Position numbers and translations under genes: made by a program. Under the pieces are notes generated by a model. It was not told where the DNA came from and ran no database searches. It saw only the letters and a program-made list of their open reading frames with translations. Below are positions 16,104 to 54,085 of a stretch of DNA of 64,000 bases, one piece after another; positions within the stretch are counted from its first letter, which is position 1; every line of letters starts with the position of its first letter. The stretch comes from a virus: positions 1-64,000 of IMG/VR virus record IMGVR_UViG_3300037010_002878; one strand, given 5' to 3'.

Positions 16104-16123
16104 AAAGGGAAGTTGAACCCTTT
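16104..16123. terminator. Bidirectional terminator between convergent genes
   Basis: AAAGGG-8 nt-CCCTTT between the end of terminase (plus) and the end of the 213-aa gene (minus). T or A runs on both sides allow use from either strand. Confidence 0.55.
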
Positions 16124-16136
16124 CTAACTTATTATA

Positions 16137-16778
16137 TTAATTCACCGTAATATATTTAACTAACCAAATAGAATCTTCACTGGCCAATGTAGCTTTTAAT
16201 TTGAAAGTCTGTTCAGAACCTTTATTGTTCTTAATAGTGAAGCTTCCTCTCTCAGATAAATTTATTTTTAATTTAACTTTTCCGTTTATCTCTGCATTTT
16301 CTGGAGTTTTATCTTGCATTTTTATATAAATGTTTTCATAATGTTTTATACTATCAATAGGGTCGTCTATAAAGTAGTTAAATTTATAAACAGTTTCCCC
16401 TTCATTTAAACTCCATTTAGAAGTTAGTTCATTGAAAAAACAATTAGAACCAGATATATCTATTCTAACCAAACCTAAAACTTTTTTATCAAAATCATAA
16501 ACTGGAAAACTATCTAAAAAATCATCTATACACATAACAGCTAGTCTGTAAGTGTCATAATCTACTTTTCCCAAATGAACTGCTACCATATTCGGAACAT
16601 TAATATCTTCTAATGCATAATCTGAATAATGATACCCTTTAACTATATTAGATTTAGCATCAATCAATAAAGTCAAGAATTTTTCAGTATCGTATTTAGA
16701 GAAAACCTCCATTTTGTTTTTATCAAATATTTTTTGATATGCATTTCTTTCTTCTTGGGTTAAATAATGTTTAATCAT
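16137..16778 (-). CDS. Unknown 213-aa protein coupled to the U32-like gene
   Basis: No family recognised. Residues 1-120 are alpha/beta with an aromatic-rich middle (GYHYSDYALED, VYKFNYFIDDPID); the C-terminal 70 residues look like a beta-sandwich (GKVKLKINLSERGSFTI). Its start overlaps the stop of the preceding U32-like gene by 8 nt, so the two are translationally coupled and may act together. It is the last gene of the tail-fibre operon. Confidence 0.75.
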   Translation of the reverse strand: MIKHYLTQEERNAYQKIFDKNKMEVFSKYDTEKFLTLLIDAKSNIVKGYHYSDYALEDINVPNMVAVHLGKVDYDTYRLAVMCIDDFLDSFPVYDFDKKVLGLVRIDISGSNCFFNELTSKWSLNEGETVYKFNYFIDDPIDSIKHYENIYIKMQDKTPENAEINGKVKLKINLSERGSFTIKNNKGSEQTFKLKATLASEDSIWLVKYITVN

Positions 16779-17748
16779 TTTTCAAAACTTCCTTAGCTAT
16801 AGTTTTATATATTATATCACAATAATTACATTCATGACATTTATTTTTACAATTTCTTGTTTTCTCATAGAAATTATGGTCATTTAAATGATGAGTGAAT
16901 ATTCTTTTGTAAATTCCGTTTGGGTTAGTATCTACTAAATTAAAAATACTTATATTTAAGTTATCAAAAAAGTAAGCTTTTATTCTATCAAAAACTTCAT
17001 TTAATGGTTTTCCTCTACAAGCTATTTTAAAATAATCTACTCCCATATCTTTATATTTATTTAAAGTACCTGGAATTACAAATGGTGATTTTAATGTTAT
17101 AGATGGATTAAGATCAAAATCCCCTCCACATGACAATCTGGAAATTTTGTTTACAACAGAATTAAGATTATTTGAAATGCTTTCATCACATGCTGATTTA
17201 TAAGGACAATTTGGAATACAACCTTCATTTAACAAAATAGTAGTTTTAATGTTATTAAGTTTACAATAATCAATTATTTTTAATAATTCATCTTCATTTC
17301 TATTTAAAGATCTATCTAACATAATAGAATTTATATTGAAAAATGTATGATATGTAATGACATCTTCTAAGGTTTTTAATTTATTATTAACAGAATTTTT
17401 TATTTCAATATTTTCTGATAATCCTCGATTTTTTAACTCTTTCAATAAAATGGTGTTATTAATTGTTAAAATATCTATAGGTAACATTCCGATAATATTT
17501 ATCAAAGCATCTACATTTTCGTCCAAATAAATTTGCTGATTGTATGTGTAACCATTCATTACTAAATGTAACTTCACATTATTGAACTTAATTTTTATCA
17601 ATTCATTAAGCATTTCTTGAGAGAATTCCTGAATTCTAGCAGAATTAGTTAAATGATGATTTATTGAGAAATAAACATCATTGACTAAATCATAACCTAT
17701 TATATCAAAAATTTCTGAAATTCCTGATGTATATCCAACACTGAACAT
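16771..17748 (-). CDS. U32-like cysteine-rich TIM-barrel protein, probable Fe-S enzyme
   Basis: 325 aa. Alternating strand/helix pattern with LPIDILTINNTILLKELK and SIMLDRSLN, then NEGCIPNCPYKSACDE near residue 180 and a C-terminal CKNKCHECNYC cluster near 300. This resembles the U32 family (UbiU/UbiV/RlhA-type proteins), whose conserved cysteines hold a [4Fe-4S] cluster in hydroxylation reactions. About nine cysteines in an AT-rich phage protein is striking. SD AAGGA lies before the ATG, 9 nt after a fibre gene. Family assignment is by motif style, not search. RNA or protein hydroxylation, or a structural role, are open. Confidence 0.6.
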   Translation of the reverse strand: MFSVGYTSGISEIFDIIGYDLVNDVYFSINHHLTNSARIQEFSQEMLNELIKIKFNNVKLHLVMNGYTYNQQIYLDENVDALINIIGMLPIDILTINNTILLKELKNRGLSENIEIKNSVNNKLKTLEDVITYHTFFNINSIMLDRSLNRNEDELLKIIDYCKLNNIKTTILLNEGCIPNCPYKSACDESISNNLNSVVNKISRLSCGGDFDLNPSITLKSPFVIPGTLNKYKDMGVDYFKIACRGKPLNEVFDRIKAYFFDNLNISIFNLVDTNPNGIYKRIFTHHLNDHNFYEKTRNCKNKCHECNYCDIIYKTIAKEVLKND

Positions 17749-17757
17749 TATTTTCCT

Positions 17758-18216
17758 TTATGGGTGTCTTGCAGTAACTGCAATTGTATAAGATAATGAG
17801 GCTTGTCTTGCTCTATAACCTGTAGCGGCTGTAGCTGTTATTGTAACGATTCCAGTAGATCCGAAAACCTGTGAAGAAAACGATGGATTTCCAACTACAG
17901 TATTTGAATATCCTTGAGTAGCTTCGGTTGATCCAGTAGAAGTGACTATCATTGAGTAAACCCAATCAGGACCGCTTGTACCAGTGATTGCAGCCAAATT
18001 GTGTGAATAAGTTCCGGGGGTTAATTGACCTACCGATGAGACAGTTCCGTATTTTACGTCGGCTGCTCTAGCTGCCCTCGATGCCTCTTGGGCTGCCTGA
18101 GCAGCCGCAGCATTTGCTCCGTTTATCATAGAAACTAGCTGATTATAATGGTCAGTAGTTAAATATCCAGATAGATCTGGCTGCTCTACCCTTTCTAATT
18201 TAGCTTTTGTTGGCAT
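17758..18216 (-). CDS. Small tail-fibre protein with Ala-rich coiled coil
   Basis: 152 aa. Residues 30-52 are an Ala-rich helix (NGANAAAAQAAQEASRAARA) like a trimeric fibre stalk, followed by a Gly/Ser/Thr-rich beta domain (residues 55-150). The stalk uses GC-rich codons unlike its neighbours, which hints at separate origin. It sits 9 nt downstream of the collar-domain fibre gene and is probably a fibre tip or fibre-attached protein. Confidence 0.65.
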   Translation of the reverse strand: MPTKAKLERVEQPDLSGYLTTDHYNQLVSMINGANAAAAQAAQEASRAARAADVKYGTVSSVGQLTPGTYSHNLAAITGTSGPDWVYSMIVTSTGSTEATQGYSNTVVGNPSFSSQVFGSTGIVTITATAATGYRARQASLSYTIAVTARHP

Positions 18217-20222: not shown

Positions 20223-21278
20223 TTATTTCCAAAACATTATTTTTACATAACCTGAACTATAACGATTGTTTGCGTTCGTATAAACTCCACCATCTCCCGT
20301 TCTTATCCAGTAATGTATATTATCGTAAGACTCTACCAATGTATAACAATTGGCGCCATAACCATTCCAACCGTACCACCAATACCACCAATAATTATTA
20401 GCAGTTGTTTGAATATGTGGTATAGTAAACACTTGTTTAGTATCTGAATTTGAATTATCATGTGAAAAAACTATTTGATAAAAACGAGGTCTAATTCCTA
20501 AATTATGTGGTATTGAAAAAGTATTACCACCAGATACATATATCCACGGAGATTCATAATCTGCAACTAAATCAATATTAGCCCCTGATATTGTTCCTGA
20601 AGAATCAATAACTTTATGCCCCCCTATAGATAATCCAGTACTATCCAATTGAGATGTACCTGCAGTAATTATAGGTGCTGAAATGTTTTGAGCTCTAACT
20701 TGGTCACCGATATAAACTTTAGGCATACTAGAAAATAAAACCATTTCATCTTGAGGTCCTTGACCTTCTTGCCATTTACCGAAACTAAATAAATCAGAGT
20801 TGATGTATAAACCTACTCCTTTAGTATTTACGCCATTATATGGACGAATTGTAAAATCATTCGTAGGTGAATCTAATTTTATTCCTAATCCAACCACTTT
20901 CAAAAACCCATTAGATGTTACTACAGTATCAGCAGATACAGCTTGAATTTTATTTGTGGTACTCAATGTTAATGTTCCGGTTATTTCAACATCACCAGTT
21001 ATCTTGCCACCAGTTTTTGCATAATAATCGTGAGGTAATTGGCTATGATTGAATGCAATCTGACCATAATCTCCTCTAAAAGCAGTAGAGCTAGTATTCC
21101 CTAATTTAATGTTTTCAATCCAGGTTTTATTACCATTAATATCTGAAGTTAAAACTAGCCCGGATTTTTCCGGAAAAGGAATTCTATCTTCTTTTCCTTG
21201 ATTGAGCTGAATAAGAGGAGTGTTGAAATTGTCTGGGCGTTTATCGCCTTCTTTTAAAAGAGATATGTTAATCGGCAT
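20223..21278 (-). CDS. Tail fibre with aromatic-rich tip
   Basis: 351 aa, first gene of the fibre operon with an exact late promoter at 21304. The N-terminal part (FNTPLIQLNQGKEDRIPF, HDYYAKTGGKITGDVEITG) is a typical fibre attachment and shaft sequence. The last 110 residues are a beta-rich tip with a SIPHNLGIRPRFYQIVF segment as in H-type lectin-like fibre tips. A remarkable YWWYWWYGWNGYG patch follows at about residue 305. That patch probably forms a sugar-stacking surface. Confidence 0.78.
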   Translation of the reverse strand: MPINISLLKEGDKRPDNFNTPLIQLNQGKEDRIPFPEKSGLVLTSDINGNKTWIENIKLGNTSSTAFRGDYGQIAFNHSQLPHDYYAKTGGKITGDVEITGTLTLSTTNKIQAVSADTVVTSNGFLKVVGLGIKLDSPTNDFTIRPYNGVNTKGVGLYINSDLFSFGKWQEGQGPQDEMVLFSSMPKVYIGDQVRAQNISAPIITAGTSQLDSTGLSIGGHKVIDSSGTISGANIDLVADYESPWIYVSGGNTFSIPHNLGIRPRFYQIVFSHDNSNSDTKQVFTIPHIQTTANNYWWYWWYGWNGYGANCYTLVESYDNIHYWIRTGDGGVYTNANNRYSSGYVKIMFWK

Positions 21279-21303: not shown

Positions 21304-21311
21304 TATTTATA
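21304..21311 (-). promoter_or_regulatory. T4-type late promoter of the fibre operon
   Basis: Exact TATAAATA on the minus strand, 25 nt before the ATG at 21278. Confidence 0.7.
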
Positions 21312-21401: not shown

Positions 21402-22935
21402 TCAAGTAATTTTTTTTAGTTTATGTTTCATAAATGTAGATCTATGAAAAACCTCTCCATCTTTAAAATACCAATAAGATGGAGGAGTTATTTCCGATTT
21501 CTTAGAAAACTCCTCATAAACTTTTTTCCCAGGATTTCTAGATATATCAGCATAAGATATTATATTTTCTGATTCATAATTTAATTTAAAATATGATAAA
21601 AATTTACTAAACATTCCTGGGATATGGAAATCTAATAAAGTGCAAAATCTAGATAGTTCAATCTCTCCGGATTTATATGAGGATTTCTTGAATGTCATTA
21701 CGGACACCAGCTCATCTTTTAAATAAGCCCCTAACTTTACAGATGATATATCTTTTCCTTGGATATGATTATTTTCTAAAAATTCGTTTTTGATATTATT
21801 AGGTATTTCTTTTATAGTGACTTGACGGGCATAACATTTTGTAGATAATTTTTTTAATTTAGACTTAATTATATTTAACTATTTCTTGTTTATTCAACCA
21901 ATGATGTTCAAATATATGAAATAATGTTATTCCCAATTCTTCACTTATTTTCTGTTTGTTTAAATGGTAATTTTTGTCTTTTCCCATAGATTCTGAATGC
22001 CAATATAATCCATTATATTCAAAACCTATATTTAACTCAGGTATAAAAATATCTATTTCATTTACACCTGGCAATCTTTTAGCTTCAGTTCTAAAACCTA
22101 AAGATTCTATAAATTCTTTAACTTCTAATTCAGCATACGATGTCCCGTATGGTTTTGGATTACACATCTTGCATGGATTATAGGTTACATTCTTTAATGA
22201 ATGAGTAAATACATTTTTGCAAGTTTGGCAATGAAGTTCATAAGGAAAAAAATTATTAGATAGCAATATATTGTGATCTAGTAGTTTATTTTTCTGTCTA
22301 TCTATAAAAGCTTGTTGTTTAATATATAAATGTTCAGTTGTAAAACCCTCGGGAGGGGTAGTTAAATTATTTTTCAGGCAATATTTTAATTCAGATATAT
22401 TTAAAGATTTATTATATGGTATATTCAATAAATCCAATAAATTATGTAGATATTTTGAACTAACCTTATCAATCTCAAGAAAACTCCTATCAAGTGAATA
22501 TTTTTCAATAACCTTACACAAAAAATTAGTACATCTGTGCTTATTTTCTTTTCTAACATAAACTAATTGTTTTCCGCAATATCTACATACATTAGATTCT
22601 TTTCTTAAAATGGATTCTTCGTGTTTCTTTGAATTTGATTTTAATAGATTATTGGTACAAGTGCGCTGACATTCATTTGAGCAATATGTTTTGAATTTGT
22701 TATTTCTATCAGGTGAAACTAGATTATTGCACGAGGGATTATTGCAAAATTGTGGTTCGTGTAAATCTAATTTTATATAAAATAATCTAGTACGTGAGGG
22801 GGTATTGTTAGGGAGAAATGGAGTTAGATTTTTTAACTCCATCTCAAATGTAGTATATTTAGATGTGTCTTGGGTACATCTTTTAGAAATGTCACCATCT
22901 GGGTAAAATTGTTTTAATAATTCTAATCTATCCAT
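21402..22935 (-). pseudogene. Homing endonuclease, frameshifted
   Basis: Two reading frames make one protein. Residues 1-356 (22935-21865) carry Cys-pair zinc-finger modules (CNNPSCNN, YCSNEC, CRYCGKQ, CQTCKN, CKMCN) and a nuclease core with NEIDIFIPELNIGFEYNGLYWHSE and FHIFEHHW. The conserved C-terminal region continues in another frame through KKLSTKCYARQVTIKEI to the end of the 101-aa frame at 21402 (NRFCT-like SRFCTLLDFHIPGMFSKFL, YWYFKDG). Removing one T near 21873 restores an unbroken frame (EIVKIIKSKLKKL). The family is the free-standing endonuclease common in T4-like phages. It lies between a fibre gene and a baseplate gene. Confidence 0.8.
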
Positions 22936-42887: not shown

Positions 42888-44060
42888 TTATGCTAAAGTT
42901 AAAACTGTACTACGAACTACGCCATCTGAACCTTTTACTTTTATCGTTAATGATGTATCAGATGTTAATTCAAACATCATATCCCCGTTATTTACTGGAA
43001 CAACTGATGCACTAGGAGTCATAACAACATCATCAATAAATGTTTTAACACCAGCTATTGACTGATTTCCTACAGTATAAACTCCATTTGTAACTGTTCC
43101 AGCATTACCAGTAATTGACCCAGTAATGGTACTAGAGAATGTTTTAGCTCCTGTAATAGTTTGAGTGGTACTAGCATAAACTCCATCAGTTACTGTTCCA
43201 GCATTTCCCGAAATTGATCCTATAATTGTACTAGAGAATGTTTTAGCTCCTGTAATAGTTTGAGTGGTACTAGCATAAACTCCATCAGTTACTGTTCCAG
43301 CATTACCTGAAATTGACCCAGTAATGGTACTAGAGAATGTTTTAACACCAGCTATCGTTTGGTTTCCTGTTGTATAAACTCCATTTGTAACTGTTCCAGC
43401 ATTACCTGAAATTGACCCAGTAATTATCTGAGTAAATGTTTTAGCTCCTGTAATAGTTTGAGTGGTACTAGCATAAACTCCATCAGTTACTGTTGTTGCA
43501 TTACCTGTTGTATTTGCTACTATACCATCTGAAAAAGTTTTAACACCAGCTATAGTTTGGTTTCCTGTTGTATAAACACCATTTGTTACTGTAGCTGCAT
43601 TTCCTGAAATATTACCAGTAATAATTGTAGTAAATGTTTTAGCTCCTGTAATAGTTTGAGTGGTACTAGCATAAACTCCATCAGTTACTGTAGCTGCATT
43701 ACCTGAAATTGACCCAATAATTGTACTAGAGAATGTTTTTGTTCCTGCAATAATCTGATTGCCAATTGTATAAACACCATTAGTTACTGTTTCTGAATTA
43801 CCAGTAATTGAACCAGCAATTGTACTAGTGAATGTTTTAACTCCATCTATGGATTGATTTCCAATTGTATAAACACCATTAGTTACTGTTTCTGAATTAC
43901 CAGTAATTGAACCAGCAATTGTACTAGTGAATGTTTTAACTCCATCTATAGTTTGACTGCCTGTTAACTTTACAGCAGTGGTATCTAGATAAACGAAATT
44001 ATCATCCACTTCATTGTGTGTTAATACAGTACCTTTGTCTCTTCTTAATATTAATGCCAT
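42888..44060 (-). CDS. Repeat-built tail fibre, nine 33-aa repeats
   Basis: 390 aa. N-terminus LRRDKGTVLTHNEVDDNFVYL is the attachment motif also found at 53120 and 54454. Residues about 35-335 are nine 33-residue repeats of the form QTIAGVKTFSSTI-x-GSISGNA-x-TVT-x-GVY (plus a partial tenth). The C-terminal 55 residues (SVVPVNNGDMMFELTSDTSL) form a small tip. Expected to be a long trimeric beta-structured shaft. DNA repeats are nearly identical, so length may vary by 99-bp steps. Confidence 0.85.
   Translation of the reverse strand: MALILRRDKGTVLTHNEVDDNFVYLDTTAVKLTGSQTIDGVKTFTSTIAGSITGNSETVTNGVYTIGNQSIDGVKTFTSTIAGSITGNSETVTNGVYTIGNQIIAGTKTFSSTIIGSISGNAATVTDGVYASTTQTITGAKTFTTIITGNISGNAATVTNGVYTTGNQTIAGVKTFSDGIVANTTGNATTVTDGVYASTTQTITGAKTFTQIITGSISGNAGTVTNGVYTTGNQTIAGVKTFSSTITGSISGNAGTVTDGVYASTTQTITGAKTFSSTIIGSISGNAGTVTDGVYASTTQTITGAKTFSSTITGSITGNAGTVTNGVYTVGNQSIAGVKTFIDDVVMTPSASVVPVNNGDMMFELTSDTSLTIKVKGSDGVVRSTVLTLA
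43762..43949 (-). repeat. 89-bp identical tandem repeat, 99-bp period
   Basis: 43762-43850 and 43861-43949 read identically inside the repeat fibre. The remaining seven units are close relatives. Confidence 0.85.
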
Positions 44061-53119: not shown

Positions 53120-54085
53120 ATGATTTTAAGAACTGCTAAAGGTTCAGCATTAACTTATGAAGAAATGGATTCCAATTTAACTTATCTTGATAACACGAAG
53201 GTTAATAAAACCACAGATGAAACAATTGCTGGTATTAAAACATTCACTTCACCTATTCAAGGTAATTTAGTAGGAAATGCGACATCTGCTACAAAATTAC
53301 AAACTCCAAGAACTATTAATGGTGTAGCTTTTGACGGAACTCAAAATATTATTATCCCGGCACAAACATTAGATGGTGTGGCTATCAATACACAACCTCA
53401 AACGTTTACTGGTGTAAAAACTTTTTCAGATGGTTTGATTACGGATATATCTGGAAACTCAGGAACTACAGATAAATTCAAAATAGGTAGAAAAATAAAT
53501 GGTGTTATGTTTGACGGTTCTCAAGATATTACTATTCCATTTGACACTGATAGTTTTGTTACATTGAGCACCAATCAAACAATTTCAGGGCAAAAATCAT
53601 TTTCAGTTAGTCCAACAGCTCCAACACCACCTTCTAGTGATAATTCTACTAAAGTGGCTACCACTGAATTTGTAAAAACTGCGTTGATTGGATTTAGTGG
53701 AGGTTCATCTACTCCAGGGCCAATGGGACCTGCTGGACCTCAAGGTCCTCAAGGTCCAATGGGACCAGCTGGACCAGGAAGTTCATTATTTGTATCATCT
53801 GGTATGGTTGTATGTAGCGGAGGTTTTACTAGTAAAGTAGGTTATCAACCAGAATCTACTGAAGAAAATTATGCAGATGTATTTCCACCTACTGGATACA
53901 CAATGGATCATTTCAAGGGTGTAATACCTTCTATTAGAAATATGTGGTTTGCAGGAACAGTTAACAGTGATGATATTTCATACTGTATCAGTTATGTAAT
54001 GACTGATAGAATAAGAATACAATGTGGAAATTCAGAACAACGAGCCGCAGCACAAGCTAACTATGTAACTTTTTGGCAAAAATAA
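53120..54085 (+). CDS. Tail fibre with collagen-like segment
   Basis: 321 aa. N-terminal LRTAKGSALTYEEMDSNLTYL attachment motif (shared with 42888 and 54454 genes), shaft repeats with INGVAFDGTQNIIIP and TIAGIKTF, a KVATTEFVKTAL segment near residue 185, then a collagen-like Gly-Pro-x run (GPMGPAGPQGPQGPMGPAGP, about 200-220), and a C-terminal 100-residue tip. Trimeric fibre; collagen-like stalks are known from other phage fibres. Confidence 0.85.
   Translation: MILRTAKGSALTYEEMDSNLTYLDNTKVNKTTDETIAGIKTFTSPIQGNLVGNATSATKLQTPRTINGVAFDGTQNIIIPAQTLDGVAINTQPQTFTGVKTFSDGLITDISGNSGTTDKFKIGRKINGVMFDGSQDITIPFDTDSFVTLSTNQTISGQKSFSVSPTAPTPPSSDNSTKVATTEFVKTALIGFSGGSSTPGPMGPAGPQGPQGPMGPAGPGSSLFVSSGMVVCSGGFTSKVGYQPESTEENYADVFPPTGYTMDHFKGVIPSIRNMWFAGTVNSDDISYCISYVMTDRIRIQCGNSEQRAAAQANYVTFWQK

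Follow-up and report, generated by a model that had tools for sequence, protein, structure and literature searches.

Introduction

Among the characterized members of the U32 superfamily, those closest to the protein studied here act in hydroxylation. UbiU and UbiV each carry one [4Fe-4S] cluster on four cysteines and hydroxylate without O2 (PMC10470549), and RlhA and TrhP are required for the C5-hydroxylation of C and U in RNA, with E162, C170 and C177 of TrhP and their counterparts in RlhA being essential (PMC6599085). A phage setting of U32 proteins is that of the Tevenvirinae RB69 and Thanatos-1, the cytosines of which bear a sugar attached through a 5-hydroxyl (PMC13390438, PMC12838424). 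Formation of 5-hydroxy-dCMP has been credited to a thymidylate-synthase homologue (PMC13390438), and the authors of the Thanatos work gave no hypothesis for the route by which the hydroxyl reaches the cytosine (PMC12838424). Our literature search returned no paper devoted to a phage U32 protein, and a preprint on 5-hydroxycytosine biosynthesis (10.1101/2025.06.16.659550) may cover the RB69 gene. The U32 superfamily is already known; a phage subfamily with two predicted clusters, placed in fibre operons and accompanied by a conserved partner, as presented below, appears undescribed in the literature searched.

Results and Discussion

The window, i.e. the whole 64 kb stretch of DNA that we analyzed, is part of a 76,397-base virus record that is itself an incomplete fragment. 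It has a G+C content of 30% and belongs to a T4-like phage of bacteria, as judged from genes for the major head protein, baseplate wedge and hub, head closure and a Dda-like helicase; portal and TerL genes of the record were presumptively assigned from sequence and gene order. A preliminary description of this DNA had placed a U32-like, cysteine-rich Fe-S protein inside a late tail-fibre operon, coupled by an 8-nt overlap to a 213-aa protein. Both open reading frames are indeed present on the minus strand and share the letters ATGATTAA, and the two cysteine motifs had been read correctly as NEGCIPNCPYKSACDE (residues 174–189) and CKNKCHECNYC (residues 300–310) of a 325-aa protein, in which 10 cysteines make up 3.1% of the residues compared to 0.74% for the ORFs of the window overall. 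The two genes are the final ones of a minus-strand operon running from 21278 to 16137 with intergenic gaps of at most 9 bp (Table 1). The position directly downstream of fibre genes holds for the operon but not for the nearest neighbour, since a 152-aa ORF separates the 542-aa fibre gene from the U32-like gene.

Table 1: Features of the fibre operon and of its U32-like protein (positions in the window).
Feature	Position	Strand	Basis or remark
T4-type late promoter motif TATAAATA before the operon	21304..21311	-	26 bp ahead of first operon gene
First operon gene, 351 aa, likely fibre	20223..21278	-	weak PHROG fibre match; 67% identity, same place in relatives
Fibre-associated gene, 119 aa	19854..20213	-	phrog_8716 tail fiber, 2.9e-4
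Tail (collar) fibre gene, 542 aa	18226..19854	-	phrog_8469, 9e-13; phrog_1800, 2e-11
Operon member, 152 aa, probably virion-associated	17758..18216	-	ORF; L113 and L117 have a homologue at this position
U32-like TIM-barrel protein, 325 aa, 10 Cys	16771..17748	-	ORF; AF2; Foldseek; PHROGs
Cys set I, residues 174–207: N174 E175 x C177 x3 C181 x5 C187 x19 C207, predicted first Fe-S/metal site	17128..17229	-	
K241-x3-R245, counterpart of KIEGR	17014..17028	-	invariant in family; HMM-aligned
Cys set II, C300-x3-C304-x2-C307-x2-C310, second of the two predicted metal sites	16819..16851	-	70/70 homologues
Conserved partner, 213 aa: N-terminal alpha/beta, C-terminal beta-sandwich	16137..16778	-	homologues beside U32; AF2
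Intrinsic-terminator-like hairpin, operon end	16104..16123	-	immediately 3' of 213-aa gene

The designation of the operon as late is backed by the placement of TATAAATA, which we take to be the core of the T4 late promoter. The number of copies in the window (15) is not above chance; 12 of them sit 19–41 bp upstream of a start codon on the correct strand, compared to about 10% for permuted octamers, and one copy precedes the operon itself. Close relatives show an identical gene order of the fibre operon at 56% identity, and in the more distant lineage L114 (39% identity) the U32 gene and its partner are again flanked by fibre genes.

Several observations concern the surroundings of the operon. 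Just ahead of it lies a homing-endonuclease-like gene (21865–22935, minus strand; phrog_3339, 2.4e-35), which has a counterpart in the relative L113 (51% over 202 aa) and is absent from L117. TerL is uninterrupted in the window and split into two ORFs in L113 (12258–15315, minus strand), with the look of a fractured split intein: the first ORF stops after an N-intein-like CVGENSIINIF... sequence, and the second opens with a domain resembling a homing endonuclease, followed by a C-intein-like ...NNIINHN/C junction, after which TerL resumes. Between the U32/partner pair and TerL this one relative also encodes an RCC1-repeat protein (L113:10843–12261, plus strand), the start of which resembles a fibre-like protein of the window (42888–44060).

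The 325-aa protein gave no match to Pfam, NCBIfam or PDB sequences, and it was not matched by the PF01136 profile at E<=1; the 76 kb record gave no match to this profile either. The earlier U32-like assignment therefore has to do without a direct PF01136 match, but it is carried by the fold, by transitive profile matches and by the K-x3-R motif. Only two PHROGs were matched, phrog_1458 (1.7e-11) and phrog_5757, annotated as 'peptidase' (4.8e-6). A tblastn search against phage genomes gave 325 records, with identities below 30% among the matches listed. They come from T4-like phages that infect enterobacteria, Shewanella or marine cyanobacteria, and some are labelled 'peptidase' or 'peptidase family U32'. 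Of eight family members four are matched by PF01136 at E<=1, the best (8.6e-12) being a member from the Tevenvirinae, and the homologue L009 reaches 45.3 bits at a cut-off of 22.4. A family HMM built from these eight detected RlhA (30.6 bits), TrhP (20.6) and UbiU (17.1) in E. coli, leaving UbiV unmatched, and hhalign assigned a probability of 96% to the transitive profile link to U32. The AlphaFold (AF2) model of the 325-aa protein, computed from 28 sequences (pLDDT 86, pTM 0.85), shows a U32-type TIM barrel. Its top Foldseek match among 350,542 PDB chains is 5d88, the U32 protein Mk0906 (E 2.1e-7, TM 0.50/0.63; runner-up 1.1e-4), and the closest viral model is an RB69-like 'Peptidase'. As the profile matches of the relatives, the predicted fold and the similarity to 5d88 agree, we regard the 325-aa protein as U32-like and past the reach of the Pfam model, and very probably as an Fe-S protein of this type. 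A radical-SAM identity of the C-terminal CxxxCxxC was rejected, as PF04055 does not match the protein and its fold is matched by U32.

Both cysteine sets are found in all 70 distinct homologues, as NExC-(x3 or x10)-C-x5-[C/H] and as a C-terminal C-x3/4-C-x2/3-C-x2-C, with eight ligand positions conserved throughout. The motifs are thus no product of chance, as they are retained although identity to the window protein drops to ~22%; in the family alignment C207, K241 and R245 are likewise invariant. Position 187 is a histidine in 59 and a cysteine in 11 of the 70 sequences, the cysteine marking the window clade and the Tevenvirinae clade and the histidine all others, and this exchange at a fixed position suggests a metal ligand. 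From the conservation of both sets two metal or Fe-S sites, predicted to be two Fe-S clusters, are expected per monomer. Of the Fe-S protein first proposed, the two strictly conserved cysteine sets are therefore observed and the Fe-S role is predicted from them. Sequence and modelled fold place the 325-aa protein within the U32 superfamily, as a divergent member with two predicted clusters, the first at the U32 position and the second at the C-terminus.

With RlhA, TrhP, UbiU and UbiV it has in common the TIM barrel, a cysteine cluster after the corresponding strand and the K-x3-R motif, K241 and R245 being aligned by HMM with the KIEGR present in three E. coli U32 proteins (RlhA, TrhP and UbiU), and the HMM link decreases from RlhA over TrhP to UbiU. 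In contrast, the ligand spacing here is C-x3-C-x5-[C/H]-x19-C, as opposed to C-x6-C-x14/16-C-(x3 or x38)-C in UbiU, RlhA and TrhP of E. coli, and the C-terminal Cys4 site is an addition that the U32 domains of all four proteins do not have. The essential glutamic acid of RlhA (E161) and TrhP (E162) has no clear positional counterpart, and the invariant E175 nearby may or may not replace it. This altered region, together with the structural genes all around, would also fit a non-catalytic virion or assembly component in which the U32 fold and the metal sites were retained for structure. We consider such a component improbable, as the U32-like active-site set (N174, E175, K241, R245 and the Cys/His ligands) is strictly kept at such low identity and as methyltransferase, radical SAM and oxygenase genes are associated with U32 in other phages (see below).

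The 213-aa protein had been suggested as a partner of the enzyme, and the arrangement holds in the window and is conserved beyond it, with the partner found beside U32 in four lineages. Homologues with 47–48% identity immediately follow U32 in relatives, in L114 a remote homologue (E 7e-5 in a two-sequence comparison with the L113 protein) likewise comes next to U32, and in L115/L004 (4e-4) a radical SAM gene lies between U32 and partner. A profile scan of IMG/VR revealed eight partner loci, each on a contig also carrying this U32. No match to the partner was found in Pfam, PHROGs or the phage collection, and a PDB fold search with its AF2 model (pTM 0.75) gave nothing below 1e-3. A relationship to the cyanophage proteins GC352 or GC353 was rejected as well, as hhalign lent it no support. 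Compared to UbiU/UbiV, the U32 protein of the window is accompanied by a beta-sandwich protein instead of a second U32.

Cyanophage-type U32 proteins carry a fused Methyltransf_24 domain. The corresponding T4-GC354, from the cassette GC351-GC352-GC353, belongs to the same family and shares the cysteine pattern and the place after fibre genes, but has a histidine at position 187 (cysteine in the window), the fused methyltransferase and no 213-aa partner. A survey of 23 marine-type loci showed U32 after a T4-GC351 fibre-like gene and GC352/GC353 in 22 of them, the exception (L049) being of Tevenvirinae type, and 2OG-Fe(II) oxygenase genes are often close by. The phage collection holds 123 records each for the U32-methyltransferase and for GC351, with an equal name breakdown of 77/38/8, compared to 479 for the cyanophage-type gp17; this is a comparison of totals and names only, in which many isolates are near-identical. 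Some GC353 proteins upstream of U32 (L015:3166–4524, L021:6377–7720) start with an N-terminal CxxCxxxxCC-type cysteine domain. In two fibre cassettes (L053:3206–5897, L066:2518–5198) the methyltransferase is separate from U32, and radical SAM, immediately ahead of U32, U32 itself and Methyltransf_24 are consecutive genes, possibly forming a multi-enzyme maturation module.

A different setting is found for the Tevenvirinae members RB69p050, annotated as 'peptidase' (L128:4493–5662), and TH1_065 of Thanatos-1 (L013). They share family and the eight ligand positions with the window protein, and PF01136 matches the Tevenvirinae member, but their first two cysteines are separated by a 10-residue insert and they lie in the early region, within arabinosyl/pentosyl-5-hydroxycytosine DNA-modification clusters, close to a 5-hydroxy-dCMP synthase-like (dCMP-hydroxymethylase-like) gene and to sugar genes, among them sugar-phosphate isomerase and nucleotidyl-transferase/kinase genes, whereas the window gene belongs to the fibre operon. 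For the substrate, fibres, RNA or a host surface molecule had first been suggested; as this clade resides in nucleobase-modification clusters, the substrate class could also be a nucleotide or a sugar. The main alternative to a protein substrate is that the enzyme works as a pyrimidine hydroxylase on RNA, nucleotides or DNA, with its place in the fibre operon being incidental. This would agree with the requirement for RlhA and TrhP in RNA hydroxylation, with the B. subtilis mo5U pathway, which also pairs a U32 protein with an O-methyltransferase (both PMC6599085), with the 5-hydroxycytosine-linked sugar clusters adjoining RB69p050 and TH1_065 (PMC13390438, PMC12838424) and with the 11 tRNA genes in the window. 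Nevertheless we regard a pyrimidine substrate as unlikely: the gene is part of a late operon and not of an early region, the window and marine clades are separate from the Tevenvirinae clade in the tree (distinct clades with an unsure branching order and long branches), the 5-hydroxy-dCMP step is given to the thymidylate-synthase homologue (PMC13390438), and the 76 kb record, a fragment, contains no such homologue (PF00303). Neither radical SAM nor Methyltransf_24 was found in the 76 kb record.

Relatives in cells are few. Genomes of bacteria and archaea yielded none in an initial search and four in a second one, two of which (L124, L125) look like phage sequence from their GC352/GC353-like neighbours. 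A Syntrophaceae contig (L126:16–2820) carries U32-like genes in tandem together with a third gene that has a similar cysteine motif, followed by GNAT and CysD/CysN-like genes, as read by eye, and possibly represents a cellular pathway for this U32 subfamily. These neighbours, the sugar genes beside the Tevenvirinae U32 and the Methyltransf_24 fusion could point to a small-molecule or sugar pathway supplying a decoration for fibres or for the host surface. Such a role seems slightly less likely still than a pyrimidine substrate, as no glycosyltransferase or sugar gene was seen in the window operon or in those of its close relatives.

Our preferred, though tentative, proposal is that the double-cluster U32 protein is an O2-independent enzyme that would modify a protein of its own late fibre operon, which we consider nearly even in probability with all other readings taken together. 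It would be made late, as the penultimate product of the operon. Homology to U32 proteins suggests O2-independent chemistry of the hydroxylation type, by analogy with RlhA, TrhP and UbiUV, and the late operon with the repeated pairing of U32 and fibre genes suggests a virion protein as target. This target may be a fibre or the 213-aa beta-sandwich protein, which could serve as substrate or as substrate-presenting subunit. The protein substrate is the weak step of the proposal: operon position as an argument for it is guilt by association, and to our knowledge none of the U32 proteins characterized to date acts on a protein. A collagen-like fibre as hydroxylation target was dropped, as a single short GXX run (~7 repeats) is found in the window, at 53120–54085 and thus outside of the operon. 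In a wider and more doubtful version, which we see as possible but rather on the unlikely side, phages would possess a post-translational modification system for the fibre or tip protein, with the O2-independent double-cluster U32 enzyme at its core and methyltransferase, radical SAM or beta-sandwich partners exchanged by lineage.

Conclusion

If the proposal is true, this would be the first protein-modifying U32 enzyme. If fibres are what it modifies, phages would chemically mature the part that decides which host is bound, so that sequence alone would be insufficient to describe it. TH1_065 might also be a candidate or helper for the 5-hydroxylation in Thanatos, although this step has been credited to a thymidylate-synthase homologue (PMC13390438). 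Furthermore, the family joins three phage settings in which its members are annotated as 'hypothetical protein' or 'peptidase', namely fibre operons of the window type, the fibre cassettes of cyanophages and the DNA-modification cluster of RB69 and Thanatos.
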